A DNA stretch of 41,093 nt from a virus: positions 1 to 41,093 of IMG/VR virus record IMGVR_UViG_3300039308_000010; one strand, given 5' to 3'. Shown here piece by piece: positions 5,188 through 40,090 of this stretch. The notes beneath the pieces are model-generated. The model was not told the origin of the DNA. It saw only the letters and a list, made by a program, of their open reading frames with translations, and ran no database searches. The position numbers and the translations under genes were made by a program. Within the stretch, counting starts at the first letter, position 1; the number at the start of each line of letters is the position of its first letter.

Positions 5188-5224
5188 CAAAATTGTAACT
5201 TCTCAATCTATCCGGAAAGGACAG
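5188..5224 (-). promoter_or_regulatory. Late promoter P5, protease-scaffold gene
   Basis: Minus strand: CTGTCCTTTC (5215-5224), 19 nt, then CAATTTTG (5188-5195). Only 5 nt separate the -7 element from the ATG at 5182, so the transcript should be leaderless or nearly so. It lies directly after the stop codon of the preceding gene. Member of a six-copy family; see findings. Confidence 0.75.
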
Positions 5225-5225
5225 C

Positions 5226-5663
5226 CTAAGCTGTAACAGCAACGGAATCCTGTTCTATCTTAAATTGAAATTCCATTCCGTTTTCGTCTGCGTATCGCTG
5301 GCCGGTTGTTGCAGAAAGTTCGAGGGTGACAGGGCAACCTGGTTTACCGATGATGTAAACTTCACCATTCAGGTCCGTTACTTTTAAAATCAGGTGCTGA
5401 CCAAGGAAGGGATATAAAGTAGATCTTACATCTGCTCGTTGCTTATGGATGAAGAAACGACCGGCATAGTTGAATGAAATACCATGGTCGGTATCATCTG
5501 CTTTTAATTGCAGTACTCCGCTTTCCTCTTTAAAAGGAATATCAATCCAGCCTTTACCGAAGTGAAAAGCTACAGGATTAAAGCCAGAGAAATCATAATG
5601 AGGAGCAGCTTCAAGTTTTAGAATACTGCCAATATTATCGCCTTCGTGAAATTGTAAACTCAT
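5226..5663 (-). CDS. Conserved-looking phage structural protein (145 aa)
   Basis: Soluble, beta-rich protein with an acidic middle. Its place between the late promoter P4 and the protease gene points to a virion or head-assembly role. It contains many aromatic and glycine residues in alternating strands (HYDFSGFNPVAFHFGKGW, NYAGRFFIHKQ). No family recognised. Its stop codon touches the -33 element of P5. Confidence 0.7.
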   Translation of the reverse strand: MSLQFHEGDNIGSILKLEAAPHYDFSGFNPVAFHFGKGWIDIPFKEESGVLQLKADDTDHGISFNYAGRFFIHKQRADVRSTLYPFLGQHLILKVTDLNGEVYIIGKPGCPVTLELSATTGQRYADENGMEFQFKIEQDSVAVTA

Positions 5664-5668
5664 GAAAG

Positions 5669-5705
5669 CAAAACTCCCTGTTTAGCAGGGAGAGGGAAAG
5701 GACGG
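5669..5705 (-). promoter_or_regulatory. Late promoter P4
   Basis: Minus strand: CCGTCCTTTC (5696-5705), 19 nt, GAGTTTTG (5669-5676), then 5 nt to the ATG at 5663. One base differs from the family in the upstream element. The spacer contains a perfect hairpin (5674-5692). Confidence 0.7.
5674..5692 (-). terminator. Hairpin inside the P4 spacer
   Basis: CTCCCTG, loop of 5, CAGGGAG, followed on the minus strand by TTTTG. It can terminate readthrough from the gene at 5713-5943 while the same DNA serves as spacer and -7 element of P4. Confidence 0.6.
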
Positions 5706-5712
5706 GCTAAAT

Positions 5713-5943
5713 CTATGGAAGTTTATCAATAGTTATTTCTTTACCCTTTTTGTCGACGTAAAAGTACTCTCCGTCATAAAAATAGTAGACTTGCCCTGTT
5801 TTTTTATTTAAAATAATAATAGAACCTTGAGAGTCTCTTGTTATGTATTTATCACTTTTAACTTCTAAATAGATAAAAAAGAGAATAACAACTGTAGCAA
5901 TTATTCCGACAATTGCTACTGATTTTAATAAGTTATTAATCAT
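5713..5943 (-). CDS. Small membrane protein (76 aa)
   Basis: One N-terminal transmembrane helix at about residues 9-27 (VAIVGIIATVVILFFIYLE), then a short Lys/Tyr-rich soluble domain (YYFYDGEYFYVDKKGK) that looks like two or three beta strands. It lies between the gene at 5968-6477 and the terminator/promoter at 5669-5705, and so may be expressed from P6. No family recognised. Confidence 0.65.
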   Translation of the reverse strand: MINNLLKSVAIVGIIATVVILFFIYLEVKSDKYITRDSQGSIIILNKKTGQVYYFYDGEYFYVDKKGKEITIDKLP

Positions 5944-5967
5944 AATTGAGATTTAAATGCTGCAAAT

Positions 5968-6477
5968 TTAAAAACTTAGCACCAATTGGGGCTCCCTCTT
6001 CGGTACAAAGTTTAGTCTATCAGCAAACCGTTGACGCTCCCGGTAATACCAGCGCTTCAGATTATCAAAAGGAAGATCATCTTCAGTAAAGCCGTTTATT
6101 TCCTGAAAGTGGCGAATATTATAATCAACTTCTTTAAATGGTGCATTTGGATGGCTAACGTAATGAAACATCTGTTCTCGAATCAAATCATCAATAGCAT
6201 CATTGAAACGCTCTAAGTTTCCGGGAGTAATATAGGCCCCGCGAGTTTTGAGAATGTTTGCGCCTACATAGACAGGATAAGGAAAGTAGATTTTGTTATC
6301 TATGAGTTTTTGGGAAGGGCGGACTTTCGATGGGTCCAGCTTATCATGCTTTGTCAATAAGCCCAGAAGCATTGTGGGAGCAGGCCCCCTGCTACTGATC
6401 GCCATAATTTGTCCATAATGTTTTTGAAGGTACTTAAGTACGTGCGGTAATACAGGAATTAAGAATTTAGCATCCAT
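5968..6477 (-). CDS. Hypothetical protein downstream of the half-site cluster (169 aa)
   Basis: I use the ATG at 6477 (MDAKFLIPVLPHV); the longer frame to 6516 would start at a TTG. Mostly helical, with a basic, aromatic C-terminal part (FDNLKRWYYRERQRFADRLNF) that could bind nucleic acid. No catalytic motif and no family recognised. It is the first gene downstream of late promoter P6 and of the TGTAAT cluster, so a regulatory or DNA-binding role is reasonable but unproven. A structural role is the alternative, since the head genes follow. Confidence 0.65.
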   Translation of the reverse strand: MDAKFLIPVLPHVLKYLQKHYGQIMAISSRGPAPTMLLGLLTKHDKLDPSKVRPSQKLIDNKIYFPYPVYVGANILKTRGAYITPGNLERFNDAIDDLIREQMFHYVSHPNAPFKEVDYNIRHFQEINGFTEDDLPFDNLKRWYYRERQRFADRLNFVPKREPQLVLSF

Positions 6478-6493
6478 CTGTTTTTGCGTTAAT

Positions 6494-6513
6494 CGGATGC
6501 AGTACGAGGGTGA
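6494..6513 (-). repeat. Dispersed motif, copy B
   Basis: Minus strand: TCACCCTCGTACTGCATCCG, matching copy A at 1036-1055 in most positions. It lies 16 nt upstream of the ATG at 6477. Confidence 0.45.
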
Positions 6514-6628
6514 CAAGAAACGGGGTTTGGTTGCCCTAATATACTCAATTTTTCGGCTTTAGTTGCGCGAATTTTCGCTCCTTCATTTTTTCTATAATTA
6601 TAGCTAGTGCAAAAACTCGGAAATTTTC

Positions 6629-6849
6629 TGTAATTCTGTAATGGTGTAATAACACTTTGATTATTAGTTCTTTAGGTCATTACAGCGTTTTGTAATTGAG
6701 TTTAGAATTTTTGTAAGAAATCTGTAATCCCTTTTCTTATTACAAACTTTTTGTAATTCCTTACAAAAAATTACAAAAAGAAAAATAATCTGTAATCGCT
6801 GTCCTTCAAGGGGTTATTATATAGAATTTGCAAAAATTACAGAATTACA
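6629..6849. repeat. Cluster of TGTAAT/ATTACA half-sites (iteron-like)
   Basis: About 14 copies in 221 bp. TGTAAT or a close form starts at 6629, 6637, 6645, 6691, 6712 (TGTAAG), 6723, 6752 and 6791. The inverse starts at 6679, 6739, 6760 (CTTACA), 6770, 6836 and 6844. The first three are tandem at exactly 8 bp. The same TGTAA half-site forms an inverted repeat over the early promoter. Likely a multi-site protein-binding region; origin or operator. Confidence 0.6.
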
Positions 6850-6933
6850 AAATATTTCCCTAAACTAATTCAGAGGGTAAAGGGAGAAAGCCGAAGCCCT
6901 GCGAATGGATACGGAAAAAATGATTCAGAGTTC

Positions 6934-6970
6934 CAAAAATATGACGGGTGCAGTGCTGGTAAAAGGACAG
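6934..6970 (-). promoter_or_regulatory. Late promoter P6, best -7 match of the family
   Basis: Minus strand: CTGTCCTTTT (6961-6970), 19 nt, TATTTTTG (6934-6941), a perfect TAnnTTTG. No reading frame starts close by; the first gene downstream begins at 6477, giving a leader of about 450 nt that passes through the half-site cluster. Confidence 0.7.
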
Positions 6971-7092
6971 GAAAAAAGGCTCTGCAAACCTCTCTAGAAT
7001 TGCGTATTTGGAAACGGGCTTACCATTGGTGCAGAATATTGAAAAATAGAGGGCTTATAAAACCTGTTAGATTTATTACTTGTATTTATAGC

Positions 7093-7326
7093 ATGGAAGG
7101 ATTTTCTTTTAAATGTGCTATTGCAGACACGCCCTGCGAAGTATTTGTTCAACCTGTAGAATTAGGCTTAAAAGGGCAGAGTTATCGCATACTTCAGAAT
7201 GGGAAGTTTTGTTCTTATATCCATCAATCGCCAGAAGGATTATATAGGGCTGTAGATGATAGTACTTTAACTCAGGATGATGTAGACGCTCTGGGAGAGT
7301 ATATTGATGCGAAAGGGAGCACATAA
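7093..7326 (+). CDS. Hypothetical small protein (77 aa), plus strand
   Basis: Start at the ATG at 7093 (MEGFSFKCAIAD). The open frame extends upstream to a TTG at 7000, but the preceding part reads like non-coding DNA. Small acidic beta-rich protein with two Cys residues in the first 20; the C-terminus (TLTQDDVDALGEYIDAKG) is helical. The minus-strand frame over the same bases has more Cys and His and looks like a shadow. Convergent with the gene at 7350-7583 across a shared terminator. Confidence 0.55.
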   Translation: MEGFSFKCAIADTPCEVFVQPVELGLKGQSYRILQNGKFCSYIHQSPEGLYRAVDDSTLTQDDVDALGEYIDAKGST

Positions 7327-7329
7327 AAA

Positions 7330-7347
7330 AAGCCCCTTTCGGAGCTT
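7330..7347. terminator. Terminator between convergent genes
   Basis: AAGC, mismatch, CC, loop TTTC, GG, mismatch, GCTT, with an A run on the left and a T-rich stretch on the right. It lies between the stop codons of the genes at 7093-7326 and 7350-7583 and can serve both. Confidence 0.6.
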
Positions 7348-7349
7348 CC

Positions 7350-7583: not shown

Positions 7584-7584
7584 A

Positions 7585-8797: not shown

Positions 8798-8800
8798 CGC

Positions 8801-14601: not shown

Positions 14602-15177
14602 CTAGTCTATAAGCTTCAACCGGTACGCCAATACCGATAAAGCAGCTTTTCTTGATATTCCCGCCTTTTGTGAAATATTGTCTTTATGATTGCGAAGAGT
14701 GTCTTGAGCGATAGAGAGTAGGTCTGTTATTTCCTTATCTAATAAGCCTAAGCCGATAAGCTTTAAAACATCAATCTCTCTTTTGGTAAGTACTCCATTT
14801 TCTAATTGGATAGAGGCGCAAAGTTTACCTTCATAAGCACACTGGCCACGTCTGCCGCAGTTTACATATTCAGCAGGTTTAATATTTCCATCAGTGCAGA
14901 TATCCGGGCTGTTATCAAAGCCACCGAAGCGGCAGGTGATGTATTGCTTAATTTGGTTGTTTTGGTCAGTGATGTTCCAATCTGCAAGAGCTTTCATAGC
15001 TTTTGGATTAGCAAGCATATCCGACTCAACAGTTTCAAGAACCTCTGTAGGAAATTGATCGAAACTCAACACACTACCTTTATGCAAGCACTTTACTTCA
15101 TTTTCATGAAGAAAGAACTCCACTCCATTATCAATAAGTCCCGGCGGTAGATGCTGATTGTTATCGATTAAATTCAT
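14602..15177 (-). CDS. LuxR-type HTH regulator with a Cys-rich domain
   Basis: Protein of 191 residues. The C-terminal 60 residues are a GerE/LuxR helix-turn-helix: LTKREIDVLKLIGLGLLDKEITDLLSIAQDTLRNHKDNISQKAGI. Upstream lies a Cys-rich segment with Cys82, 94, 107, 113 and 120 (DICTDG, VNCGRRGQCAYEGKLC), which could bind zinc or an iron-sulfur cluster. There is no receiver or autoinducer domain. Second gene of the early operon, coupled by one base to the Cro-like gene. A good candidate for the activator of middle or late transcription; that is inference from position and fold. Confidence 0.8.
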   Translation of the reverse strand: MNLIDNNQHLPPGLIDNGVEFFLHENEVKCLHKGSVLSFDQFPTEVLETVESDMLANPKAMKALADWNITDQNNQIKQYITCRFGGFDNSPDICTDGNIKPAEYVNCGRRGQCAYEGKLCASIQLENGVLTKREIDVLKLIGLGLLDKEITDLLSIAQDTLRNHKDNISQKAGISRKAALSVLAYRLKLID

Positions 15178-19230: not shown

Positions 19231-21817
19231 ATACGCTCTGACTCTGAAATGCCATCTGTCTTTTCTTTTGCTCGTCTTCAAAGGTGTTAAAGTTAAATTC
19301 AATTCCCTTTTCGTTTGCTTGCCTCTGAGCCTCTATCAATTCTTCCATTAATTCTTCCATTCGTGTTAGAGGAACATTAAGCTGAGTAGGAGAGGAACTT
19401 GTTGATTTCGATGCCACGGATGGTAACACCCCGCCTGTTCTATAGTGCCTTTCCGCTCTGCCTATTGCTGCGGAGTCAAGAGATACTCCTGCTCCTCCTT
19501 TTCGCTGAGAACTGTAAAGGAGAGCATCGATAGTTTCTTTATTGTTGGCGTAGGTAGATTTGCTTAAGATTGGTTCGCCTCCTTCAATTTCACCAACCAC
19601 CGCGCCGGTTAAATTATTCACCAGGGAAATACCTCCCTGGCTGTGTGAAGGTCCAACTGGTGCGAAGCCTCCTAATGCGTATTCTTTTCCGCTTTTACCA
19701 CTTGATTTTGCTTCTTTAATTCCCTGAGCAACAATTGTTGCAATTGAAATGCCTGCTCTTACTTTGGCAGTTGTGGCTAATCCGGTAGCAACGGCAACTC
19801 CACCAGGAATAGCTGAGTAAGCGGCATAATAACCAGCAATCTCTTTTTGAGTGTTCATGATTACTTGTGAGATGGCAATGGCTTTCTCTGCAATAAGTAA
19901 AGCTTTGAATGCTGCACCTCGTTGATTCACCAATCCTTTTAACAGACTCACCCCGGCAGACATATTTTCTAAGGTAGCTTCCTCAATAGCTGCTTCACCT
20001 TCTGCAAGTTGTTGCCTCTGGTCTAGCTCTTTTTGCTTTTGTTCTAGCTTCCGCGCTGAAAGTGATTTTTGGTATTCAAGGGAAGACTCGCCATAAGCTT
20101 CTGATAGGGTTTGAAGAGCAATTAATCGCTCAGTTTCAAGATCGTATTCTAATGTATCAAATTCCTCTTGAGACAGTTCGCCATTCGCTAGTTTGTCCTG
20201 ATTTTCTAAACTCCTGCTATCAAAACCATCGTTGATAATTGCTTCTCCTTTATCAAATTCTTCTTTCTGTTCCTTTTGTGCTCGTTCTCGCTGTTTTTTG
20301 GATTCTTCACCCGTTGCAAATTGTGTTTCCCCTGCCTTTAAAGTTTCAAATATCCTAAGAGAAGCAGCATCTTTAAAAGCTTTCGCTTTCGCTATTAATG
20401 GATTGTACTTTTGGTCAATCTCCGCCAACTTTCTGTCGAGGCCATCTAAGCCAACCAAACTAAAATCTTGCTGCATCTCAGCAGCGAGTTTTTTCAAATT
20501 CTCTTTTTCTTTTTCAAGTTGGTCAGCAATTCGTTTCGCCTCTTTTTCGCGCTCCTTTTGCCGATGCTCAGCTTCTTCATTCGCCTTCTGCTTAGCAATT
20601 CGTAGCTTTTCGTCTTCCGCCTTTTTCTTGATTGTAACCTCCTGCTTTTGGAAGTCTTCGTACGCCGCTAGTGTCTTTTTTGCAATTTCATATCGGTCCT
20701 TAAGCCTCTGATTAGATTCAGGATCATCATTTGGATTCATAGCAGCAATTCGCTTTTCATAATTTTTAATCATGATTTGCGTAGTCTCAATTTCATCCTT
20801 ACGTTGCTGTTCGTTCATCTGCCTGAATTTTGCAACGTTACCAGTAGCAATTTTGTCCATTTCTTCGCCGACCCGCTGCTCGGTGCTTTTGATTGCATTG
20901 TTAAGCCAATCAAGATATCCGCCAATAGCAGAAACCGCATCATAGATAACTCCACCGGTTTTAGAACCCATTGTTGCAAGAAGCTGATCCCAAGAGTCAG
21001 ATAGGTTGCTAATCTTACCGCCCAGAGTAGCACTTGTTTTAGCTGTGGAACCAGCAACACCATCTAATTCTCCGAATGCAAGTACTGCCTGTTGTATGGC
21101 ATCTTCCGAATTTTTAACCTCTTTTGTGATTCCTTTGAAAGAAAGCGATACTTTATCTCCATTCTTACTTGCTTGTATCCCGAATTCCTTCAAACGTTCA
21201 AATTCTCCGGTTCCAGCATCCAGAACAGCTTCGGTTAATTGCTTAAAGTCTTTACCCTGAGACGCTGCCAAATCTCCCATCTTTTGCATCTCCTCCATCG
21301 AAGGCTGAAATCCACGGTTAACAAGCTGCACATAGCTTTCGGTTAATTCATCGAGAGCAAATGGAGTTGTTTTAGCAAACTCTCTAAGCTCAGAAAGAGC
21401 TCTGTTGGCTGCACCCTGAGAACCTAGTGTATTTTCGAGAACTGCTGCAAATCTTTCGTATTTGGTATAAGTGTTTACCACCTCCATTCCGAAATCTTTT
21501 ATCATGCCTATACCTTGCTGGATAGCGCCACCAGCAATAACGCCCTTCGCAATATCTTTCCAGTTCGATTGGAATTTCTTTCCTTCATCTGAAAGGCCGT
21601 TCATTTCTTTTTTGGCCTCATTCAAGGCTCCCTTCAGCGTTTTTATTGCATCGGCCTTTTGTTTGTAAAGAGTCGGATTATCCGCTTTATGCATGTTCCG
21701 GATCTCGGATTCATACTTGCGAATACTGTCTGAAAGTTCCTTAACAGAAGTTTTCGCTTGTTGGCCATTAATAACCAGATTCAATACTGCTTTTTCGTCG
21801 GTTCTTGTTTTTGCCAT
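19229..21817 (-). CDS. Tail tape measure protein
   Basis: 862 residues. The N-terminus is helical with heptads (SVKELSDSIRKYESEIRNM). Residues about 125-290 match the conserved tape measure domain (FAAVLENTLGSQGAANRALSELREFAKTTPFALDELTESYVQL ... SLSFKGI). A long Lys/Glu-rich coiled coil spans about 390-470, and hydrophobic Ala/Gly-rich helices follow at about 630-700. The length of the tail is set by such proteins; at the usual 1.5 angstrom per residue this predicts a tail of about 130 nm. Last gene of the tail operon. Confidence 0.92.
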   Translation of the reverse strand: MAKTRTDEKAVLNLVINGQQAKTSVKELSDSIRKYESEIRNMHKADNPTLYKQKADAIKTLKGALNEAKKEMNGLSDEGKKFQSNWKDIAKGVIAGGAIQQGIGMIKDFGMEVVNTYTKYERFAAVLENTLGSQGAANRALSELREFAKTTPFALDELTESYVQLVNRGFQPSMEEMQKMGDLAASQGKDFKQLTEAVLDAGTGEFERLKEFGIQASKNGDKVSLSFKGITKEVKNSEDAIQQAVLAFGELDGVAGSTAKTSATLGGKISNLSDSWDQLLATMGSKTGGVIYDAVSAIGGYLDWLNNAIKSTEQRVGEEMDKIATGNVAKFRQMNEQQRKDEIETTQIMIKNYEKRIAAMNPNDDPESNQRLKDRYEIAKKTLAAYEDFQKQEVTIKKKAEDEKLRIAKQKANEEAEHRQKEREKEAKRIADQLEKEKENLKKLAAEMQQDFSLVGLDGLDRKLAEIDQKYNPLIAKAKAFKDAASLRIFETLKAGETQFATGEESKKQRERAQKEQKEEFDKGEAIINDGFDSRSLENQDKLANGELSQEEFDTLEYDLETERLIALQTLSEAYGESSLEYQKSLSARKLEQKQKELDQRQQLAEGEAAIEEATLENMSAGVSLLKGLVNQRGAAFKALLIAEKAIAISQVIMNTQKEIAGYYAAYSAIPGGVAVATGLATTAKVRAGISIATIVAQGIKEAKSSGKSGKEYALGGFAPVGPSHSQGGISLVNNLTGAVVGEIEGGEPILSKSTYANNKETIDALLYSSQRKGGAGVSLDSAAIGRAERHYRTGGVLPSVASKSTSSSPTQLNVPLTRMEELMEELIEAQRQANEKGIEFNFNTFEDEQKKRQMAFQSQSV

Positions 21818-25840: not shown

Positions 25841-28800
25841 TTAATCAGTTATGTACAAATACCATCTGTTTACGTCCATGCTAGCTACCTGGGGCGCTAT
25901 ATCCGGTGGACTGAAGTAGTTGTTGGCCTGTAGACTTGTTGCTTCCACCTTACGGTCACAATAGAAATTTTTCTGGCCGTAGGTTCTAATCGAAGTATTA
26001 TCTACCATGTGAAGTCCACCGCCCCAGTCCTGAAAATATAATCCGTTATTTTGGTGAGCGCGGAACCATCCTGATGCATAAATATCACTTGCATGATAGG
26101 CTTTACCGTCCGCGCCTATTGTGAAATATTTAACTCCGTCCCGTCCGATTGCAAAGGTGTCTGTCTCGTTTTTGAATATCCCCGCATCCCAATAGTGGCT
26201 CGCCGCCGAGTCCGAGGCATATCGAACCCTTGCACCTCCCGTTGATGTAGTTAAAAACGGGATATGTGGTGCATGTATCATAATCCACTCATCGCCCGCT
26301 GTTCCATATAGTGTCGGATATTCAATCCCTGCCCACGCTGTTTTAATTCCGAGTTTTGCGTTTGCTGATCCTCCGTTTACTTCAATCTCTCCCTTTGCAA
26401 AATAAGTGCGGGCCGACTCTATGTTTAAGTTTTTAAATTGTCCCGTGTTTCTATCGTAGGCTAGGATACTTGCGACTCCGCTCGAGTGATAATATAACTC
26501 AAGTCCTGGCCCCCCTGAGAGTCCGCTTTCTCCCGTTATTCGGATCGCTCTGTTCGTATTATTTCCGATATCGGTAACGGCTTGCAAACTTGCGTTTGCT
26601 GAGTGAAGAAGGTTATTAAGCTTAAACCTCTGCGTACCATTGGAATAGTATGCCAAATCGCCATCACCTTCCCAGTGAAATCCAGTATCATAATCGCCAA
26701 TGGCAAGAGCTACAGTAGGAGTTGTTACCGAAGCGTTAAAAGAGCCTCCGTTACGATAAATAAACAGCGGATTGCTTGTATAATATTGCTTTCCTAGATC
26801 GGCGAGGGAAGAGACGAAATCGGGAGTCCAATTCTTCCATTTGCCAGCAGCTGAATCATATCTTAGAAGCTGGCCATTCAACAAGCCTGAAAGTGCGACA
26901 TCTGTGAGACTCGCTAAATTAGTTACAGCAGCAGGAGCTGAACTACCAACGCCTCCGGAAGTATCATCAATGTAAAGGTTCCATTCATCAGCAGCAGCTG
27001 AGGCACTCGAAAAAGCGCCGGGAAGAACCAGATAAGCCGTAGCTTTTAGCTTATTTGCATTTACGGCAGGTCCATTCAAAGTTCCTGAGAGTGTTCCACC
27101 AGTTAGCGGTAGATAATTAGCAAGAGCTGAATTAGCCTGAGCAGATGTGTAGTAGCCAGCAGAAGCATGATTTCCCCAGCCATAAGCTGCTAGAGCTTTA
27201 GTTGCGGCATCATCCCAGGTAGATTTATTATAGCCTGCTTTTGCAGTATTTCCGGCAAGAATACTGTCAATATCGCTTCGGTTATAGTAGTTCGATAAGT
27301 CGACAGTACCGGAAGGAGGAGGAGTTTCGCCCGGGTGAGCAGTGCCGTCATCAGAAATGTAAATACAAAACTCACCTGCTTCGGCTTCCGCAGTATCAAA
27401 TGAAGTTGGCAGAGCCAGAAAATCAGAAGCTTTTATTTTGGTGCCATAAAGCGAACCGGTTAAGGTTCCACCGGTAAGAGGCAAATAACCATCAATACTT
27501 GAACTAGCATTCCACCTGGTGATATCAGCAGTGGTAATACTTTTAACCCAGCTAGGAACAGTAGGATCTGTTTCCGCCAAACCACTGGAATGAACTAAAG
27601 GGTTGGCGGAGTTAAAAAAAAAACCGTCGAAACTAATACCGGGTTCTTCAACATCACCTTCGGTATATGCATCATCATCAAATAAATATTGGTACTCAAA
27701 TTCCTGATAGTATAAGTTGGAGCCATCCCGAAGCTCAGGTATTTGTTTTGAGGTAAGCTTTATTGGAAGCATCAGCCCTTTCACATAGCGGAACTTTTTA
27801 GCAGACGTATAGAAATCTCTATTCAGAACCAGAGCATTCCTGCTGATAAATCCGGTAGATACTTTAAAAGACGAAGTTTGCTTTACATCAAAAACAGTAC
27901 TATCCCCAGCTTTAATGTCGTAGCCCGGCTTTCTAATCCGTTTAGCTTCCTGCTGGTTTATTTCGCTTTCCGAAGTGCCTTTACCGTAACAAACTCTGCT
28001 ATCTAAAGCTCCCCAGCTACTCCAATTCAGGAAGTAGCGAACATATTGCTTAAGCTCATAATCAATCCAGAAAGTACGTGTTTCTGATAGTACGGTTCCA
28101 TTTGCTGCTTCAAGCCACACCTCATACCGCTGCACAACTTTTTCGGAGACAATAAGCTGATCGAACCTAACATTGAAAGCATACTTGCGATACTGTTCAA
28201 GATTGAAGGCAGCTGAACTCGAAACAAGCGGAGCGGTTCCATCAGTAAAGAGCACTTTCTTTTTTAAGACTGCATTTGCCTGTGTTGCCCTGGTATTAAA
28301 GAAGTATAGAAACTGAGGCTGATTGCTTCTGGTGTAAACCTGATTGTTGCCTTGCCTTAAAAAACGGTCTTTAGAAGGATTAGCATTATCAGGAACGATG
28401 TAAGATTTAAGATTATTAAGGTAAGAACCAACATAACTCAAACCACCTTCGATTACCGTATAAGAAGCTGAAGTATGAAGCGTTTTAACGGAGATATCTG
28501 CGCCCCAAGATTCTCCATAGCGGAAATAGAACTTTCTAGCTGTTTTCTTGCAAACTAAGGGAACGAGTGAACCAGAATCAGGAATGTCGATACCAGATTT
28601 CTGAATATAGCTATTCAGAACCTCTGCAACATCATCTTCACAAACTCCGCTGGTTCCGTACTTTACAGGTAGACGTGTTTCCCGAATCAATTCAAATCCG
28701 GTGTAATCTTCCTTTTCGCAAAATAGCTGTAGTACAACTGCAAAGTTAGCCCGTGGTACTTCTGGCACTCCCGCTGTTTTTACAGAAGTACTGTAGATTG

Positions 28801-29188
28801 AACTATTAAAAGCATTGAAGCCATAGCCATGATTCTTTTTCTTCGCTGTAAAAATCAGATTAAGGCCAACAGCAGTGATATCGAAATCAGAGCTTAGTTT
28901 ATAATTTGCCTGAAAGTAAGGAAGGATTGATGCTACATAAGCAGCAAAGCCGTCTCCGGTTGGAAACTGTGTACCGCTATCATCGGGACTAGCAACAGCA
29001 GACATAACGACTGTGGTGCTTCCCCAAGTGATGGAAACAGTACCAGAAACAGGCATGCCCTGAAAAGCGACTTCATTAACAGCTGCTACACCTGGTTGCT
29101 CAAGATAATTATCACAAGAAAACTTTACCGTGATAAAGTTTCTGGAAAATGAAAAGGTATCAGGTGCTTTTATTAATGAAACGGCCAT
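25841..29188 (-). CDS. Large tail fibre / receptor-binding protein
   Basis: 1115 residues. The N-terminal ~520 residues look like a tail-attachment and carrier region. Two imperfect repeats follow: YLPLTGGTLTGSLYG with a further ~35 residues (about 568-614) and YLPLTGGTLSGTLNG with a matching tail (about 692-744). Both read like fibre stalk modules. Near the C-terminus NNGLYFQDWGGGLHMVD and IRTYGQKNFYC match the distal domain used by many tail fibres and shufflon-type adhesins. A T10 run at 27614-27623 codes for Phe-Phe-Phe at the border between the two halves. Transcribed from late promoter P3. Confidence 0.85.
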   Translation of the reverse strand: MAVSLIKAPDTFSFSRNFITVKFSCDNYLEQPGVAAVNEVAFQGMPVSGTVSITWGSTTVVMSAVASPDDSGTQFPTGDGFAAYVASILPYFQANYKLSSDFDITAVGLNLIFTAKKKNHGYGFNAFNSSIYSTSVKTAGVPEVPRANFAVVLQLFCEKEDYTGFELIRETRLPVKYGTSGVCEDDVAEVLNSYIQKSGIDIPDSGSLVPLVCKKTARKFYFRYGESWGADISVKTLHTSASYTVIEGGLSYVGSYLNNLKSYIVPDNANPSKDRFLRQGNNQVYTRSNQPQFLYFFNTRATQANAVLKKKVLFTDGTAPLVSSSAAFNLEQYRKYAFNVRFDQLIVSEKVVQRYEVWLEAANGTVLSETRTFWIDYELKQYVRYFLNWSSWGALDSRVCYGKGTSESEINQQEAKRIRKPGYDIKAGDSTVFDVKQTSSFKVSTGFISRNALVLNRDFYTSAKKFRYVKGLMLPIKLTSKQIPELRDGSNLYYQEFEYQYLFDDDAYTEGDVEEPGISFDGFFFNSANPLVHSSGLAETDPTVPSWVKSITTADITRWNASSSIDGYLPLTGGTLTGSLYGTKIKASDFLALPTSFDTAEAEAGEFCIYISDDGTAHPGETPPPSGTVDLSNYYNRSDIDSILAGNTAKAGYNKSTWDDAATKALAAYGWGNHASAGYYTSAQANSALANYLPLTGGTLSGTLNGPAVNANKLKATAYLVLPGAFSSASAAADEWNLYIDDTSGGVGSSAPAAVTNLASLTDVALSGLLNGQLLRYDSAAGKWKNWTPDFVSSLADLGKQYYTSNPLFIYRNGGSFNASVTTPTVALAIGDYDTGFHWEGDGDLAYYSNGTQRFKLNNLLHSANASLQAVTDIGNNTNRAIRITGESGLSGGPGLELYYHSSGVASILAYDRNTGQFKNLNIESARTYFAKGEIEVNGGSANAKLGIKTAWAGIEYPTLYGTAGDEWIMIHAPHIPFLTTSTGGARVRYASDSAASHYWDAGIFKNETDTFAIGRDGVKYFTIGADGKAYHASDIYASGWFRAHQNNGLYFQDWGGGLHMVDNTSIRTYGQKNFYCDRKVEATSLQANNYFSPPDIAPQVASMDVNRWYLYITD

Positions 29189-29208: not shown

Positions 29209-29245
29209 GCAAGATGGCCGAAATTGCTCTACTGAGAAAGGACAG
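29209..29245 (-). promoter_or_regulatory. Late promoter P3, tail fibre operon
   Basis: Minus strand: CTGTCCTTTC (29236-29245) is exact. At the 19-nt spacing the downstream element is CATCTTGC, a weak match to NAnnTTTG. The ATG at 29188 lies about 20 nt further, so this transcript would carry a short leader. Confidence 0.6.
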
Positions 29246-31697: not shown

Positions 31698-32285
31698 TTA
31701 TTCAAATTGTATTTCAAACTGAGGTTCAAAGAAGTTGGGCTCTGTTCCATCACCTGTATCTAAGTCGGCCCAAATTGAGGAATCTACGGTGTAAGAGAAA
31801 GGACATGCAAACTGGAAAGTAAAAAGCCATCCGTGGAAATGTTGAGGTAAGGAAGGAGGAGCCAGTGGTGTATAAGGGATATCAGCAATATTAAAGTTTA
31901 CCAGTTTACCAGGTACAATGCCTCCTTTGCCCCCAGTTTTCTTTCCATCGGTTCTTACCCTTGCCAGAATATCAATACCGATCCGCTTACACTTTTCCCT
32001 GAGTAGCGCAACCTCCTCCTGCGTTTTAGCTTTTCCGATGATAGAGAAAGAACCATTAATAGTATCGACATAGTTATTGGTGCCGTTATCATCGAGAACA
32101 CCTTCAGGAGTATCTAAAAGCATGAAGGGAGGCTGAAGCTTGTTATTAATAGCTTCATCAACCTCATCCCAATCAAAAGGATTATCAACATAGAAAAAGG
32201 ATTTCTTTTTATCCTTTCCATGCAGTATTTCCTTATGCTGAGTAGCAAGGTTCTGAAAGTAGTTTTTGTATTCCTGCTCGGTCAT
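31698..32285 (-). CDS. Hypothetical virion-region protein (195 aa)
   Basis: Acidic N-terminus, KKKSFFYVDNPFDWDEVDEAI, then a domain with GGKGGIVPGK and SLPQHFHGWLFTFQFACPF. The layout resembles small tail-terminator or neck proteins, but no clear family match. It overlaps its upstream neighbour by 4 nt and lies directly before the collagen fibre gene. Confidence 0.65.
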   Translation of the reverse strand: MTEQEYKNYFQNLATQHKEILHGKDKKKSFFYVDNPFDWDEVDEAINNKLQPPFMLLDTPEGVLDDNGTNNYVDTINGSFSIIGKAKTQEEVALLREKCKRIGIDILARVRTDGKKTGGKGGIVPGKLVNFNIADIPYTPLAPPSLPQHFHGWLFTFQFACPFSYTVDSSIWADLDTGDGTEPNFFEPQFEIQFE

Positions 32286-34289: not shown

Positions 34290-35263
34290 ATAAAGTAAAG
34301 GCCGGATGAAGGATTAGTATTGATAGAAGCCAGAGAAGCAGCGGTGCTTTCTTCGTAGCCTGCAAATTCTTCTTTATGCTTGTTTAGCCACTTGCGAAGG
34401 CTTTCAAGGTCAGCTTCGCTTTGGTTTACCAGCTTATTCATGGACAGCTGCAAACGATTTAATTCTGCTGGGTTTCTATTCTCTACGTTACCGGAAATAC
34501 CACCAACAGTATCGCTGTAGGTGTAAGCGCCCGTGGCATCCAGATTTACCAGTTTATAAGGAATAGCTTCAGCAAGGGTACGCGAGCCAACTACTTTACG
34601 AATCCGTTTTAATAAGTCTTTTTGCGGGTCAGTAAGCGTATTATTAAGAATGGCTGCCCGTAACTGGTCGGTAACATCTTCACCTAGAAGCGGCTCAATG
34701 AATTCTACTTCTATATTGGCAAGGATGCTACTAAGCGAAGCAAATAGTTCAGCACTTACAGGAAGCGTTTGAGGGAAGTCGCGGGAAGAGTTTATGAATA
34801 AACAACGATTGATTTTATGATTATCAGAAGCGCCGTAAGTAGCAAAGTCGGCAATGTTCAGCTCAAGGAAATCAACCGCAAGCTCTAAAGCATTGTACCC
34901 ATCAGCAATACACTGCCTGCGGAACTGCATTAGCTTTTTATCCGAAGCAGGAAGACGTTTATCTGACTTGGTGACATTGATACCAGCATCAGATATCTCT
35001 AAAGCTCCTGAATTAGAGAAATAGCCTAAAGCAAAGTTTACTTCTGCCTTTTGCAGAATGAATATGGCTGTTTCCAGCTTGCTACCGGGTTCTACAGTTT
35101 CCAATGCTGCAATCAATTCAGCATAGAAAGCTCTGCCGACAGCAGGTATAATATGTTGCTCTATTCCGTCGGTAAGAAATGATTCAATTGATTCTATTTC
35201 AAAGCCTGCAGAAACAGAACTGAAATGTTTTTTAATGTCTTGGTTGGTAGTAATTAAGCGCAT
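34286..35263 (-). CDS. Head-tail connector region protein (DUF6712-like)
   Basis: 325 residues, mostly helical, with a duplicated look: an N-terminal half with FLTDGIEQHIIPAVGRAFYAELI and a second with ILANIEVEFIEPLLGEDVTDQL, both followed by helices. This layout reminds me of DUF6712, a family next to portal genes in Bacteroidota phages. The ATG overlaps the portal stop. A head completion or adaptor role is inferred. Confidence 0.6.
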   Translation of the reverse strand: MRLITTNQDIKKHFSSVSAGFEIESIESFLTDGIEQHIIPAVGRAFYAELIAALETVEPGSKLETAIFILQKAEVNFALGYFSNSGALEISDAGINVTKSDKRLPASDKKLMQFRRQCIADGYNALELAVDFLELNIADFATYGASDNHKINRCLFINSSRDFPQTLPVSAELFASLSSILANIEVEFIEPLLGEDVTDQLRAAILNNTLTDPQKDLLKRIRKVVGSRTLAEAIPYKLVNLDATGAYTYSDTVGGISGNVENRNPAELNRLQLSMNKLVNQSEADLESLRKWLNKHKEEFAGYEESTAASLASINTNPSSGLYFI

Positions 35264-36600
35264 TAGTTATTTCCCTCCTTTGCTGTCTGGTGAGTATTAT
35301 CAAGCGTATCAATGGAAATTTCAGTGAATTTGAAGCGAAGGCGTGGGTATTTCGTCTTCCAACCATTGTAGCGAGCAATGAAGTTCAACGGTTCAAGAAT
35401 TACATCCCGGTAAGGTCGTTGAAGTGCTACGTAGATATTGAAAGCAACTCGTTTATCAGAACCGGAACCACCACCCATATTTTTACCAGGGCCGTTACCT
35501 ACAAGCGTTGGATCTAAACCGAGCGAACGCATCAAGTGAGCTGAAGCTTCCTGCGAATCTTCCAGATACATTCCATCTTTCATACGCTCATCAATCGGAA
35601 CTATGTTCCAGCTTTTAATCTCTTCGCCGCCTCTGGTTGTACCAACTTCAGTGAGAATCGATTTCCCAGCGTTCTTCTGTCCGGTAAGCGTATTGTTTAT
35701 TTCAGTTAGCTTTTGCTTTTTGATTTCAGCTTTAAATTCAGGCTTTTGAGAATCCCAATCCGGATAGAGCGAATACCAGTAAGTGACAGGAATTTCAATC
35801 TTGTACTTCAAACTGATTTGGTTCTGCATTAAAGCCTGCTTAAACTCAGGAATCTTAAATGCTACATCAAGCCATTTAGATGTACGTATTCCATCCCATG
35901 GAGCTAATTGATAGTAAGCTTTACCAGGTGAAGGATATGATATTGGATAGATAAACTGCTTAAGACCAGAATCAGCTTTCACTGCATCAACCAAAAGCGG
36001 CTGATAAGGATCTACAACTTTAAGTTTAATGGCATCTGCTACTTTTGCATCTGGCCAGCTTGAAGCGATGAAACATGATTCGATAATACCTTTCTTATTC
36101 ATCTTACCCCATCTGCACCAAGAAGCATCTTGCGTACCGAGATAAGCGATTTTTGAACCGTCAGCATTTTTGATGAGCTCGGGAAACACATTCCAAAACC
36201 AGAAGAAATCATTAGAAGCTTCTCGCATGTAGCGTTTGAAAGTTTCCTGATCCAGAAAATCAAGTATTTCTTCATCCCAAATCAGTTTTTCTTCGACTTT
36301 CCCTGTCTCAGGATTTAAAAACAACTCATAAGGAAGTACTTCGAGCCCCTGCAATGCTCTCGCTTTCCAGTCGAGCAGGGCAGGAAGCTCTGTACTTTTC
36401 TCAGCTAACTCAATAATTACTTGCGGAAAATTATTGTCTTCACCCCAGAAGGATATCTCATTGCTAGAACCACCACCGGTTTCTTTAACTACCGGAGAAC
36501 GAGGAGCAACAACAGGCTCTGAAGCCATGGAAACAATAATTCCATGCTCAATTAGTAAAGCTGCTTCGCCATGTCCTGCTAGTATTACTTTCTCGCTCAT
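35263..36600 (-). CDS. Portal protein
   Basis: 445 residues, with the portal-like mix of helices and strands: ALLDWKARALQGLEVLPYEL near residue 75, FNPIISYPSPGK-like loops, a long stem helix, then SAHLMRSLGLDPTLVGN and a Gly-rich loop (GPGKNMGGGSGSDKR) before FNIYVALQRPYRDVILEPLNFIARYNGW. The last element, a catch-all clip/stem segment, is typical of Bacteroidota portal proteins. It follows terminase in the gene order and should form the DNA entry ring. Confidence 0.75.
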   Translation of the reverse strand: MSEKVILAGHGEAALLIEHGIIVSMASEPVVAPRSPVVKETGGGSSNEISFWGEDNNFPQVIIELAEKSTELPALLDWKARALQGLEVLPYELFLNPETGKVEEKLIWDEEILDFLDQETFKRYMREASNDFFWFWNVFPELIKNADGSKIAYLGTQDASWCRWGKMNKKGIIESCFIASSWPDAKVADAIKLKVVDPYQPLLVDAVKADSGLKQFIYPISYPSPGKAYYQLAPWDGIRTSKWLDVAFKIPEFKQALMQNQISLKYKIEIPVTYWYSLYPDWDSQKPEFKAEIKKQKLTEINNTLTGQKNAGKSILTEVGTTRGGEEIKSWNIVPIDERMKDGMYLEDSQEASAHLMRSLGLDPTLVGNGPGKNMGGGSGSDKRVAFNIYVALQRPYRDVILEPLNFIARYNGWKTKYPRLRFKFTEISIDTLDNTHQTAKEGNN

Positions 36601-36899
36601 TATAAAGTGATTTGCATTTGGTTGAATCGGGTAACCAGCAAAGGATGAATCTTTAAAATTCTATCGCCTTTAGCTGATTTGATATTCCTGGTGTAGTTCT
36701 CAAAATGATTCGGGTTTCTTGAATCACTGTTGCTTTTACCTCCGCCTACAAGCACTGCTTCAGCAAGGGTTATTTTTTCCCCACCAGTATTTTTCTTTTG
36801 GTCACAGGTAACGAAGGTTATTGAAAACGGAATAGGCTCGCCATCGCTGGTTCGCATTGCCATTGTCTTTAACATATCCGCTACTCTGATTAAATCCAT
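36600..36899 (-). CDS. Small protein ahead of portal (99 aa)
   Basis: Basic beta-rich protein with PFSITFVTCDQKKNTGGEKITLAEAVLVGGG and a C-terminal RILKIHPLLVTRFNQMQITL. First gene of the portal-lysis operon, its ATG 4 nt after the -7 element of late promoter P2. Similar small proteins lie at this place in related phages; function unknown. Confidence 0.7.
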   Translation of the reverse strand: MDLIRVADMLKTMAMRTSDGEPIPFSITFVTCDQKKNTGGEKITLAEAVLVGGGKSNSDSRNPNHFENYTRNIKSAKGDRILKIHPLLVTRFNQMQITL

Positions 36900-36903
36900 T
36901 AAC

Positions 36904-36940
36904 CAAAAGTCTCCAAATACACACGCGCACGAAAGGACAG
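36904..36940 (-). promoter_or_regulatory. Late promoter P2, portal operon
   Basis: Minus strand: CTGTCCTTTC (36931-36940), 19 nt, GACTTTTG (36904-36911), then 4 nt to the ATG at 36899. Leaderless mRNA predicted. Confidence 0.75.
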
Positions 36941-37129: not shown

Positions 37130-37150
37130 GTGCCCGTGGGGCTTGGGCAC
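37130..37150 (-). terminator. Hairpin at the end of the terminase gene
   Basis: GTGCCC pairs with GGGCAC around a 9-nt loop, ending at the terminase stop codon. There is no T run, so it may be a weak terminator or an mRNA stabiliser. The 250-bp gap below it also holds a direct repeat, TATCAATGAGGGGG (37003-37016) and TATGAATGAGGGGG (37111-37124). Confidence 0.45.
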
Positions 37151-38781
37151 TACGATGAGAAGATTAGGTCTCCCTGCACATCTGCGAAGCCATACTCATG
37201 CTTGTTGGCTCCAATGTATAAGGTATCTAGTGCATCACCTTGGTGAGGTGCTTCTTCTTGGGGAAAGTTAGAGTTCTTCTCTGGTCGCTTGTCTTTCTCG
37301 AAGCCGTTCTTTCCCTGTACAACTCCGGTGCGTTGCATTGATACGATAACAGAAGCAGCGTTATCTTTATTGAACTTAACAGGTTTAAACCTTGGATCTC
37401 GTTCAGTGAATACAGCTCCCCACATCCGGTACCTGGTCTCGTGCCTTGGTTGTTGACCAATATAGATACGGTTAACCTTCCAACCTTTCTTTGTTAAGTA
37501 AGCGCTTACGATATCAGCTAAGGTTTCGTTCCTTGAACTGTCAGTTTGCATGGAGGTATGGTCATAGTAGTAGTTGACCTCCTTGCAATTGTGATGCGTG
37601 TAATAGTTGGTGAAGTCTTCCAGCACATCTTGCACCAGCTTAGGAGCTTTAACATACATGGACTTTATAACACGGAAGGTGTTATGCATGGATTGAGCTA
37701 TCACTAAGCTATTGATGCTGGCATTGTGATCCATACCAATATCAAGTGGCATTCCTTTGATCAGGTCTCCATCTTTGCGGCAATCGCTAATTGTACCAGA
37801 TGGAAGATACAAGCCTAAGCTATCGATGTAGTTATAATCGTACGCATTATAAGTATGATGGTCTTCATCAAACAGACCGTAAAAGCCATTCTCAATATGG
37901 ATAAGTCGACGGTTAAGAATAGCTGCTTGAAATACCGGCCACATCAATTCTCTTCGCCATTGCTTTATCTGGTCTTCACCTAAAATTTGAATATTATCGA
38001 GAGAGGAAGCTTCAGAATAGTATACCAGGTCTTTCCGGAGAGCATTAAGCACAAAAGCGTAATCATTCATTTTACGCATCAGCCACTTCTTGCGGGGAGC
38101 AGTAGTTTGCGGAAGCTGGCACTCCAATTTCAGTTTGTTGTAGGCTAATTGAATATTGATAACCTGAGCAACTTTCCCTTTATCCATCTGCTGCTCTTTT
38201 TCGAATATCCATTTACCATCAGCATTTGTTGGCATGTCAGTATACATGGTTACCATGTGATGCTCTGCTAAATGACCGAAAAACTCTCGGTTACCACGAT
38301 TGGTAGGAGCAATATCATCCATATATCGCTTGTGGTTCATCAGCTTCACCTCATCAGCAGCCATAGCATCAAGAGATTTACCGTTAGCAAGTCCAGGTCT
38401 ATCTTGTGATATCAGATGAAAAACGTGGCCATTGTACCAGAAGATTGAATGTTCAGGGGAAAGTACCGGATAAATGGCTTTAGGAATGTTATACTTTTTA
38501 TCGGGGAATCTTCGAAACCAGTAATGAACTCCTTCATAATAACCGAATTTCTCCCATGACTTAAGTAAGGGAGGAAGTGTTCTATCAAGAAGTTGCATGT
38601 AAGTAGCGCCAACAATACCGGTAGCGCCGCGAGGCATAACGTTTGCAGCGTGGGAAGTTCTATCAGCAAAAGGACCTTGCGTTTTTCCGGTACCACGACC
38701 CCAAACTCCGTATTCCTCTTTGGCTCTTACTAGGTGAGCTTTGCGCTGCGGTTTATTTAGCCAGATTTTAACCTTCCTCAA
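37150..38781 (-). CDS. terL: Terminase large subunit
   Basis: 543 residues. ATPase: Walker A WGRGTGKT (27-34), Walker B LDAMAADE (137-144) with the catalytic Glu. Nuclease of RNase H fold: Asp347/Asp351 in PLDIGMDHN, Asp407 in NYYYDHTS and Asp516/Asp519 in HQGDALDT. It drives DNA into the procapsid and cuts it. It overlaps the small-subunit gene by 14 bp. Cutting mode (cos or headful) cannot be decided from the sequence. Confidence 0.93.
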   Translation of the reverse strand: MRKVKIWLNKPQRKAHLVRAKEEYGVWGRGTGKTQGPFADRTSHAANVMPRGATGIVGATYMQLLDRTLPPLLKSWEKFGYYEGVHYWFRRFPDKKYNIPKAIYPVLSPEHSIFWYNGHVFHLISQDRPGLANGKSLDAMAADEVKLMNHKRYMDDIAPTNRGNREFFGHLAEHHMVTMYTDMPTNADGKWIFEKEQQMDKGKVAQVINIQLAYNKLKLECQLPQTTAPRKKWLMRKMNDYAFVLNALRKDLVYYSEASSLDNIQILGEDQIKQWRRELMWPVFQAAILNRRLIHIENGFYGLFDEDHHTYNAYDYNYIDSLGLYLPSGTISDCRKDGDLIKGMPLDIGMDHNASINSLVIAQSMHNTFRVIKSMYVKAPKLVQDVLEDFTNYYTHHNCKEVNYYYDHTSMQTDSSRNETLADIVSAYLTKKGWKVNRIYIGQQPRHETRYRMWGAVFTERDPRFKPVKFNKDNAASVIVSMQRTGVVQGKNGFEKDKRPEKNSNFPQEEAPHQGDALDTLYIGANKHEYGFADVQGDLIFSS

Positions 38782-39418
38782 AATCTACCTCCTCTGCATC
38801 ATCTGTAACAGCATCAAGAATGTTCTTCTTGAATGATTGCTTAAGCTTATTTACAACATCATCCGGATTATCAATTTTCTCGAAACCAAGTTCAGAAGGG
38901 TCATCAACGATAATAAGCTCAGTCGGTTGAAGCAGATCGGCGTTCATTGTTTCCGGATCTACACGGTCTAAGCCTCTTATCTTGGCAAGCTCCCGAAAGA
39001 AAGCTGCAGCAGACTTAAAATCTCCCATGCTTACAGCTAAATGCATAAATTCTTCACCCTGAAGTATCATTTGACCTCTGGCAAATTCTTTATCTTCCCT
39101 TCCTTCAACGGAAAGGAAAAATTGCTTAGCCATTGCTATGTCTACATAAGCTTGCCTGTGACTTATTCCGAACTTCTCAACCAACCACTCAACTAGTTCC
39201 TTATATCGAATAGGACGGTTAAAAACATGTATTTTTTTATTGACTGTTTTCTTTACAATTTGACCTTCTTTAAGTCGATTGTCTGCCTCCGTAATTCTTT
39301 CAAGAATTTTCTTGTCAGACTCGCTAAGTTGGTCGAGCTTATGCTCAATATGTGCTCTTAAAATTCGGTCTAGGGGTGTGTCTTGACCTATATTTTTTGC
39401 TTTAATTAATTTATCCAC
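38768..39418 (-). CDS. terS: Terminase small subunit (probable)
   Basis: 216 residues. The middle holds a helix-turn-helix-like part (YKELVEWLVEKFGISHRQAYVDIAMAKQFF), followed by helices suited to oligomerisation and an acidic C-terminus (DAVTDDAEEVDFEEG) that may contact the large subunit. Position immediately upstream of terL with overlap supports the call. It should recognise the packaging site. Confidence 0.75.
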   Translation of the reverse strand: MDKLIKAKNIGQDTPLDRILRAHIEHKLDQLSESDKKILERITEADNRLKEGQIVKKTVNKKIHVFNRPIRYKELVEWLVEKFGISHRQAYVDIAMAKQFFLSVEGREDKEFARGQMILQGEEFMHLAVSMGDFKSAAAFFRELAKIRGLDRVDPETMNADLLQPTELIIVDDPSELGFEKIDNPDDVVNKLKQSFKKNILDAVTDDAEEVDFEEG

Positions 39419-40049
39419 GCTTCAACTCCTTCTTCATTTCGTCAAGTTGTGTCTGGCTGGTTTTTATTAACTCCAAAGTTTTTTCCGGATTACGACACTT
39501 GCCAGAAGCGTACCTAGCTTTCGCCTTGCTAATTGTTTGATGTAATAGTTGGATTGATTGAGATGTACTTCTTTTAGGAGGCTCGGGCTTTGGTTCTAAC
39601 ACAGGGAAAGTTCCATTTTCATCGTAAAAGTCCAACTGCATCCAAATTTCTTTAATCTGGCTATCGAGGGAAAGTATCTGCTTTGCGGTAAGATGAAGAA
39701 CATCCTGCTTTTTCTCATAATCAAGCTGAGCCATGTTCCTTTTCAGTTGATCATACTTCCTGCTCAGTGTTTGCTTAAGCTGCAAGTACTTCTCAATGTC
39801 TTTGGATTTATCAGCGATAGGAGCAGCTTTCGGTTCTTGTATCTTGATATTTGCTACCTGCTTTTGAGGGATGGCAGGTGTAGCTGGTGCGAGAACTTCT
39901 AACTCTGCAACCAGCTTCTTTAAGTTGTATGGCGTAGGTCCCGCTGTTAAAAGCGTTTTGAAGAAATTGTTAGTGCCGAACTTTTTATAAAGCTCGACAC
40001 CCTTGGTGAAATCTCTTTCCGATTTGAGCCACGCGAGTATATCCTGCAT
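39411..40049 (-). CDS. Coiled-coil protein ahead of terminase (212 aa)
   Basis: The N-terminal ~40 residues (ILAWLKSERDFTKGVELYKKFGTNNFFKTLL) are typical of a protein often found before terminase in Bacteroidota phages. A Pro/Ala-rich linker (60-80) leads to a long coiled coil (about 85-130) and a basic C-terminus. It overlaps terS by 8 bp. First gene downstream of late promoter P1. Function unknown. Confidence 0.7.
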   Translation of the reverse strand: MQDILAWLKSERDFTKGVELYKKFGTNNFFKTLLTAGPTPYNLKKLVAELEVLAPATPAIPQKQVANIKIQEPKAAPIADKSKDIEKYLQLKQTLSRKYDQLKRNMAQLDYEKKQDVLHLTAKQILSLDSQIKEIWMQLDFYDENGTFPVLEPKPEPPKRSTSQSIQLLHQTISKAKARYASGKCRNPEKTLELIKTSQTQLDEMKKELKRG

Positions 40050-40053
40050 GGCT

Positions 40054-40090
40054 CAAAGGTGTGAAAGGGTAAGTATGAGGGAAAGGACAG
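40054..40090 (-). promoter_or_regulatory. Late promoter P1, terminase operon
   Basis: Minus strand: CTGTCCTTTC (40081-40090), 19 nt, CACCTTTG (40054-40061), then 4 nt to the ATG at 40049. Leaderless mRNA predicted. Confidence 0.75.

Follow-up and report, generated by a model that had tools for sequence, protein, structure and literature searches.

Candidate activator-dependent late promoters, partly of leaderless layout, in a lineage of Bacteroidota siphoviruses

A repeated late-strand motif in the analyzed phage sequence

The minus strand of a 41,093-nucleotide (nt) virus sequence (IMG/VR record IMGVR_UViG_3300039308_000010, positions 1 to 41,093; hereafter the window) encodes, among others, a large terminase, a portal protein, a head maturation protease and a tail-fibre-like protein, and carries in front of several of these genes a short, repeated, promoter-like motif. 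A preliminary description of this motif had listed six minus-strand copies of a 10-mer, five of them followed after 19 nt by the element NAnnTTTG. All six copies are located as claimed, exact at 5215, 29236, 36931 and 40081 and one base off at 5696 (CCGTCCTTTC) and 6961 (CTGTCCTTTT). Five of them carry the TTTG-bearing second element at that spacing, and the sixth (29236) also has its second element in register, in the variant form CATCTTGC. The first element is phage-specific, as proposed, but its conserved part is shorter than the 10 bp originally assigned to it: the box comprises the 8 bp TGTCCTTT, with loosely conserved neighbours and a free tenth base, and the spacer counted from this box is 20 nt.

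The window was searched with the pattern nYGTCCTTT-N20-NAnnTT, using 200 dinucleotide shuffles of the window as control. Seven stretches fit, all on the minus (late) strand (shuffles: mean 0.11, maximum 2), and CTGTCCTTT alone occurs five times on that strand and never on the plus strand (shuffles: mean 0.51, maximum 3). The 10-mer alone, at up to two mismatches, yields 50 matches against 39.7 expected, barely over chance, and further one-mismatch copies lie at 19256+, 29498+, 25076- and 31797-. The signal resides in the exact box together with its spacing, not in the 10-mer alone. To the six original members this search adds a seventh fit, which is ambiguous because it lies inside the end of a gene and its counterparts in relatives, compared by eye, seem to encode a similar peptide; it may be coding sequence only.

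The copies generally stand before late genes, as had been proposed (Table 1), with the exception of the 6961 copy, which is not directly before a head gene. Four sites share a feature absent from the preliminary description, an ATG placed 4, 4, 5 and 5 nt after the TTTG at 40090, 36940, 5705 and 5224, respectively, and several copies start a few nt past the preceding stop codon. No Rfam families were found in the window. The tail-fibre-like gene (25841-29188) begins ~20 nt downstream of its site, whose variant second element recurs, likewise in register, in Polaribacter phage Leef and locus L022, and the large terminase (37150-38781) was assigned by similarity to annotated phage terminases. 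The mechanically called start of the protease gene, a TTG at 5242, overlaps the box; because of the promoter layout, a leaderless ATG at 5182 is the likelier start. Between the 6961 site and gene 5968-6516 lies an AT-rich stretch free of open reading frames (6590-6860), with many TGTAAT/ATTACA words in both directions and a pair of inverted 24-nt arms (6619-6642, 6836-6859), which looks like an origin, an iteron array or an operator.

Table 1. Promoter-like sites and associated genes in the window.
Feature	Position	Strand	Details
Late promoter-like site	40054..40090	-	CTGTCCTTT-N20-CACCTTTG; ATG of 39411-40049 4 nt past TTTG
Late promoter-like site	36904..36940	-	CTGTCCTTT-N20-GACTTTTG; ATG of 36600-36899 4 nt past TTTG
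Late promoter-like site, variant second element	29209..29245	-	CTGTCCTTT-N20-CATCTTGC
Late promoter-like site	6934..6970	-	CTGTCCTTT-N20-TATTTTTG; 454 nt upstream of 5968-6516, no open reading frame called directly downstream
Late promoter-like site	5669..5705	-	CCGTCCTTT-N20-GAGTTTTG; ATG of 5226-5663 5 nt past TTTG
Late promoter-like site	5188..5224	-	CTGTCCTTT-N20-CAATTTTG; protease ATG (5182) 5 nt past TTTG
Ambiguous seventh fit	31770..31806	-	ATGTCCTTT-N20-CAATTTGG; within 3' end of gene 31698-32285
Gene behind site 40090	39411..40049	-	Precedes 38768-39418 and large terminase 37150-38781
Gene ahead of portal	36600..36899	-	First gene behind site 36940
Portal protein gene	35263..36600	-	Second gene behind site 36940
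Candidate late activator (5968 family)	5968..6516	-	Putative function; likelier start ATG at 6477
Head maturation protease	4151..5182	-	Behind site 5224
LuxR/GerE-type regulator (P0001)	14602..15177	-	Rival candidate reader of the box; PF00196, E 3.7e-9

The motif in phages chosen by protein homology

Relatives chosen by protein homology provide a fair test of the motif. A search with the window's portal protein found a single contig (G001), 21 kb of which contain seven copies with at most one mismatch, where 0.94 would be expected; each lies on the portal strand, and in five the TTTG keeps its spacing. An alignment of portal proteins led to 39 loci, of which 33 remained after removal of that of G001 and of five contigs listed in the motif scan reported below. 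In these 33 loci all 19 occurrences of CTGTCCTTT are on the portal strand (59 permuted boxes on the portal strand: mean 2.0, maximum 10), and NAnnTT stands at offset 20 for 16 of the 19 copies, all other offsets being represented by fewer than four; one locus, L316, overlaps a motif-scan locus and contributes two of the 19 copies.

These 33 loci were combined with G001, Mea-Yong924-1, Ingeline, laban, 6H, Leef, two P. gingivalis prophages, BT-TP2 and MT835542 into a set of 43 homology-chosen records, the late strand of laban, 6H and MT835542 being assigned by hand. In this set the late strand holds 68 TGTCCTTT-N20-NAnnTT sites and the opposite strand one, while each alternative spacing between 8 and 35 gives no more than 12 sites and 29 permuted cores give a mean of 0.5 and a maximum of 5. 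At least one site is present in 27 of the 43 records; without L316 the counts become 66 versus 1, in 26 of 42 records. The 68 sites amount to 66 distinct sequences, and some of the records are mutually related and do not represent 43 independent trials. Enrichment in related phages, which the preliminary description had put forward as a check, is thus borne out by strand and by a single favoured spacing and, together with the late-gene context, supports its proposal of a late-promoter regulon controlled either through a phage activator or through an altered interaction with sigma. An automatic de novo motif search recovered the box in some genomes, AT-rich words swamping others.

Genomic context and lineage

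Gene context was compared across 31 genomes, consisting of the window, G001, 25 motif-selected contigs, Mea-Yong924-1, laban, 6H and Ingeline. Terminase, portal, head protease and major capsid clusters (linked BLAST hits) are common to all 31, so that the motif characterises a single deep lineage of Bacteroidota siphoviruses. Its named members belong to the Duneviridae (laban, 6H, Ingeline) and Helgolandviridae (Leef), or are P. gingivalis prophages and Bacteroides phage BT-TP2. Late sites of this kind are also borne by the "Microcystis phage" Mea-Yong924-1 (MZ447863, L210), which has terminase and portal in common with Bacteroidota phages; its host label may be wrong, the true host perhaps being a Bacteroidota bacterium in the Microcystis culture.

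With one box mismatch allowed, the box-plus-TTTG pattern yields 99 sites in these genomes, and rather than being as common within genes as upstream of them, 73 of the 99 lie outside the open reading frames called by a mechanical procedure that favours long frames. The next gene is most often the small gene ahead of portal (19 sites), the protease (18) or the 39411 family ahead of terminase (14), followed by the 5226 family (5), tape measure (4) and portal (3), with no gene at nine sites and the remainder scattered. When NAnnTT is required, 125 sites lie on the strand of the 5968 gene and six on the opposite strand. Portal-side, protease, terminase-side and tape-measure genes all occur downstream of sites, and a box at fixed spacing is shared before several late operons, as expected of activator-dependent phage late promoters. 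The highest number among the 31 genomes is found in contig G046, with nine NTGTCCTTT-N20-NAnnTT sites on one strand.

A scan of IMG/VR contigs with CTGTCCTTT-N21-AnnTTTG-N3..5-ATG returned at least 118 stretches, as against 27 for a permuted box (CTCTGCTTT). Eighty of these loci contain 112 copies of CTGTCCTTT, with TTTG at offset 24 in 93 (most of them the copies selected for) and at each other offset in at most two. Counted over whole records for 100 of the at least 118 loci (97 distinct records), CTGTCCTTT-N24-TTTG is present in two to four copies in 46 records, 45 of which have them all on the same strand; in reverse order the pattern matches none of the 97 records. In loci L015 (4289) and L046 (10970) boxes stand back to back as an inverted pair (GGACAG...CTGTCC, ~10-15 nt between), which could represent divergent promoters or a dyad for the reader.

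Species genomes were scanned for the pattern with an ATG at 4 nt, giving 86 stretches. Forty-six lie in 8-kb loci with matches to core families of the lineage (L257 via an integrase only), and 42 of the 43 titled ones among them are Bacteroidota, the remaining one being a metagenome-assembled genome labelled Alphaproteobacteria. The other 40 match no lineage family; of the 37 with titles, 21 are Bacteroidota and 16 belong to other phyla or are unplaced, many having no more than a very short reading frame at the ATG. Phyla were taken from titles, and ~30 chance matches were estimated from collection size by our own arithmetic. No host regulon is visible, since the 46 matches are phage regions and the other 40 are near the chance estimate; the 21 Bacteroidota matches could still include a few true sites from outside the lineage. 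One perfect site, with an ATG at 4 nt, precedes a gene with a DNA polymerase IV-like start in Croceitalea (L224, 7778), in an 8-kb locus where lineage genes were not found, and is either chance or a captured host promoter.

Promoter architecture and its variation

Over 199 distinct, mostly motif-selected sites the second element reads NAHHTTTG, G accounting for 11% and 7% at the two middle places. Its first place (-12) is C in 41%, G in 28%, T in 23% and A in 9% of these sites, and T in 28, C in 24, G in 12 and A in two of the 66 distinct sites of the homology set, where the last four bases are TTTG in 39, TTCG in nine, TTGC in six and TTCA in six. In Flavobacterium johnsoniae promoters, the -7 element is TAHHTTTG, with a nearly invariant T at -12 and G virtually absent at the two middle places, the -33 element is barely visible, and transcripts start 4-5 nt past the element, with leaders longer than 10 nt in 87% of cases (PMC6847099); in Bacteroides thetaiotaomicron, ~3.7% of 5' untranslated regions fall below 10 nt (PMC7366714). 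Outside the -12 place, the second element of the phage sites (A at -11, HH and TTTG) agrees with the F. johnsoniae element, including the rarity of G at both middle places. The likeness in spacing to Bacteroidota promoters that had been pointed out earlier is also seen where the box has a TTT: from there to NAHHTTTG the distance equals that between the two elements of sigma ABfr-type promoters.

An ATG follows the TTTG at 4 nt (85 sites) or 5 nt (27) in 112 of 154 distinct TTTG sites, most of which had been selected for an ATG at 3-5 nt. Less biased counts of an ATG at 4-5 nt are 8 of 13 TTTG sites in three genomes not chosen by motif (background for any TTTG, 3.5%), 15 of 38 in selected genomes after removal of one matching site each, and one of seven in portal loci. 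By these counts at least a third of the sites are, by their layout, apparently built for leaderless mRNA, and the others are not. The leaderless geometry fits four of the seven window matches, the mRNAs of which should be leaderless, because the ATG sits where Flavobacterium transcripts begin.

The box itself varies among relatives. All five copies of ATGTCACAA in phage laban are on its late strand, four followed by NAnnTTYG after exactly 20 nt and the fifth by TAAACTTG; its box, TGTCACAA, has no TTT, and the geometry is kept. Loci L321 and L328 have TGTCCTC boxes with NAnnTT at spacing 20 in 4 of 4 and 4 of 6 late-strand copies, respectively, L324 shows a noisier TGTCCTC-like pattern, and L331 contains four copies of TGTCGTTT with the second element one base nearer and an ATG at 4 nt in three and at 3 nt in one. 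A TTTn in register is present in the TGTCCTTT type and absent from laban's TGTCACAA and from TGTCCTCY, TGTC being shared by all box types. Such drift at kept geometry points to a phage-encoded reader, because a host sigma factor is not expected to follow it.

Search for the protein that reads the box

An iterated profile of the protein encoded at 5968-6516 finds family members in all 31 lineage genomes (in 6H at E 6.5e-4) and in five of five further phages (E 1e-28 to 2.5e-11). The gene's usual place is after the early genes and ahead of the first head genes, in most genomes directly ahead of the 5226 or protease genes, and a strict site starts within 100 nt of its stop codon in 8 of the 31 genomes and within 1000 nt in 18; in L331 the homologue ends at 897 and the first TGTCGTTT site stands at 966. 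The member in BT-TP2, gp8, was annotated by its depositors as a "transcriptional regulator". Predicted models of the family are confident (predicted local distance difference test scores 88 and 92) and end in three helices. The best hits of a second look at the PDB, a mitochondrial ribosome chain (Z 5.0) and a transposase protein (Z 4.2), were not significant, nor was that of the C-terminal part alone, a homeodomain (Z 4.0), and a fold search of a viral library returned only an uncharacterised Leef protein (E 4.3e-8). Going only by its presence and position, the 5968 family may be the late activator that reads the box, an assignment we make tentatively.

The LuxR/GerE-type protein P0001, which has a cysteine-rich middle part, was the first candidate for a common reader and was demoted when profile searches left site-bearing phages without a match. 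Homologues are present in 15 of the 31 genomes, including laban, 6H, Ingeline and Mea-Yong924-1, and also in Leef, and were not found in the other 16, some of which are incomplete contigs (G001 starts near the primase gene), while G012 spans the region. No P0001 match better than E 0.29 was obtained in BT-TP2 or in the P. gingivalis phages 017a and 026a, all three of which bear sites, and P0001 as a query against viral contigs found no relative. The 5968 family is thus the better candidate reader, and P0001 perhaps has a role in early control. A shared sigma factor or activator was also sought in 12 genomes without P0001 (G001, G005, G009 and G062 not included), for which 165 early-region proteins were picked and 144 scanned against Pfam and PHROGs; beyond repressor-type helix-turn-helix proteins, none recurs among the 25 commonest of 41 and 112 families.

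Discussion

Taken together, the strand bias, spacing, gene context and sequence of the sites make it probable that they are activator-dependent late promoters used by the host RNA polymerase. In this mechanism, host polymerase with its primary sigma factor would contact the Bacteroidota-type -7 element (NAHHTTTG, frequently with another base than the usual T at -12). A phage-made activator would bind (n)TGTCCTTT, a box of 8-9 bp around -41 to -33, either replacing the host -33 element or sitting next to it, and the spacer of 20 nt would hold activator and polymerase in register. With a copy at each of several late modules, these would be switched on jointly, and where an ATG lies 4-5 nt past the -7 element the mRNA would begin at or next to the start codon, other sites giving transcripts with a leader.

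Several observations weigh against this interpretation or parts of it. Sixteen of the 43 homology-chosen records are without TGTCCTTT-N20-NAnnTT; five of them (laban, L321, L324, L328, L331) carry drifted boxes, and in Flavobacterium phage 6H no box was found, including by the automatic de novo search. Drifted boxes also occur on the opposite strand, those at L321 11422 and L324 14066 with NAnnTT in register, and 26 of the 99 sites in the 31 genomes lie inside mechanically called open reading frames. Of the 66 distinct sites in the homology set, only 23 have an ATG 4-5 nt on; seven more have it at 3 nt, and 25 have none within 16 nt. The argument from a weak -7 element is only partial, because T remains the commonest base at -12 in that set (28 of 66). 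As for the candidate activator, the 5968 family has no regulator match in Pfam, PHROGs or fold searches, a tblastn search with it against a phage collection gave no match, and the 5226 family is equally universal across the 31 genomes.

Two other ways of reading the sites by polymerase are about equally unlikely. In the first, an alternative sigma factor, either a host extracytoplasmic function (ECF) factor or a phage-encoded one, would recognise box and second element with no activator. One box at one fixed distance from a second element is typical of sigma recognition, and ECF factors are described as numerous in the Bacteroidota (PMC7366714). Yet the second element is of the primary-sigma -7 type and the box varies between phages, and neither the species-genome scan, with its 46 phage regions and 40 further matches against ~30 by chance, nor the 25 commonest families of the 144 early proteins disclosed a host regulon or a recurring sigma factor. 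The second possibility, that these are ordinary primary-sigma promoters with an extended -33 element that work without an activator, their timing set by, for example, DNA replication or repressor loss, gains from the coincidence of the box TTT with the position of the host -33 TTTG and from the prevalence of T at -12 in the homology set. It is improbable in view of the 8-bp invariant box, which host promoters lack (the F. johnsoniae -33 element being barely visible), of laban's TGTCACAA, which keeps the geometry without TTT, and of the T at -12, nearly invariant in host promoters and present in 42% of sites here.

That P0001 reads the box as a class II activator is very unlikely: its DNA-binding domain is clear and its homologues reach 15 of the 31 genomes and Leef, but it is unmatched in 16 genomes (some of them incomplete contigs), in the P. 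gingivalis phages and in BT-TP2, and 6H has the protein with no box found. Least probable of all is that the motif is no promoter and acts instead as an RNA-level element of translation or processing near the start codon, or as a linker aiding module exchange, as the constant ATG distance at many sites and the copies just past stop codons might suggest, given that the spacing is kept at the 25 of 66 sites with no nearby ATG and that the second element agrees base by base with the host -7 consensus.

A phage box takes the place of the -35 element in other activator-dependent phage promoters, such as the middle promoters of T4 (MotA box) and late promoters of the P2 type (Ogr). By analogy, the sites described here resemble them in kind: a phage-specific box precedes, by a constant distance, an element of the host -10 type and is repeated before co-regulated operons. 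They differ in host phylum, sigma type, box and an often predicted leaderless start, and no homology of MotA or Ogr to the 5968 family is shown. Late regulators of temperate phages, such as lambda Q and the ArpU/RinA type, are encoded at the end of the early region, which recalls the position of the 5968 gene between early and first head genes; unlike them, the present system would comprise several scattered promoters instead of one, and the 5968 family has no Pfam or PHROGs match to a named regulator. From the sigma ABfr promoter (-33 TTTG, -7 TAnnTTTG) the sites retain the NAHHTTTG element and, in many cases, an ATG (the presumed +1) 4-5 nt on; they depart from it in having an 8-9 bp box in place of a weak -33 element and a T at -12 in only 28 of 66 sites, and several of the phages have a box without TTT.

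No description of such a promoter was found in the open-licence papers searched, and among the literature matches listed for the literal CTGTCCTTT none concerns Bacteroidota phages; the word "promoter" is absent from the available excerpts of PMC8776804 and PMC10367356. Within those open-licence papers the box, polymerase, partly leaderless layout and candidate protein appear to be new. A shade more tentatively than the assignment of the 5968 family itself, we suggest that this family may form a new class of activator that redirects primary-sigma polymerase to often leaderless late promoters, box and activator having co-evolved into pairs represented by TGTCCTTT, TGTCCTCY, TGTCACAA and TGTCGTTT.

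The timing of late genes in Bacteroidota phages has no description within the literature searched, and the present analysis yields for it a precise promoter definition, a candidate activator and culturable phages (BT-TP2, Leef, Ingeline). The motif is usable for locating late transcription units and for correcting start codons across many phage genomes. If the proposed mechanism is true, leaderless mRNA would be widely used by these phages, in a phylum for which such genes are reported to be rare, and their promoters would provide phage-derived expression parts for Bacteroides.

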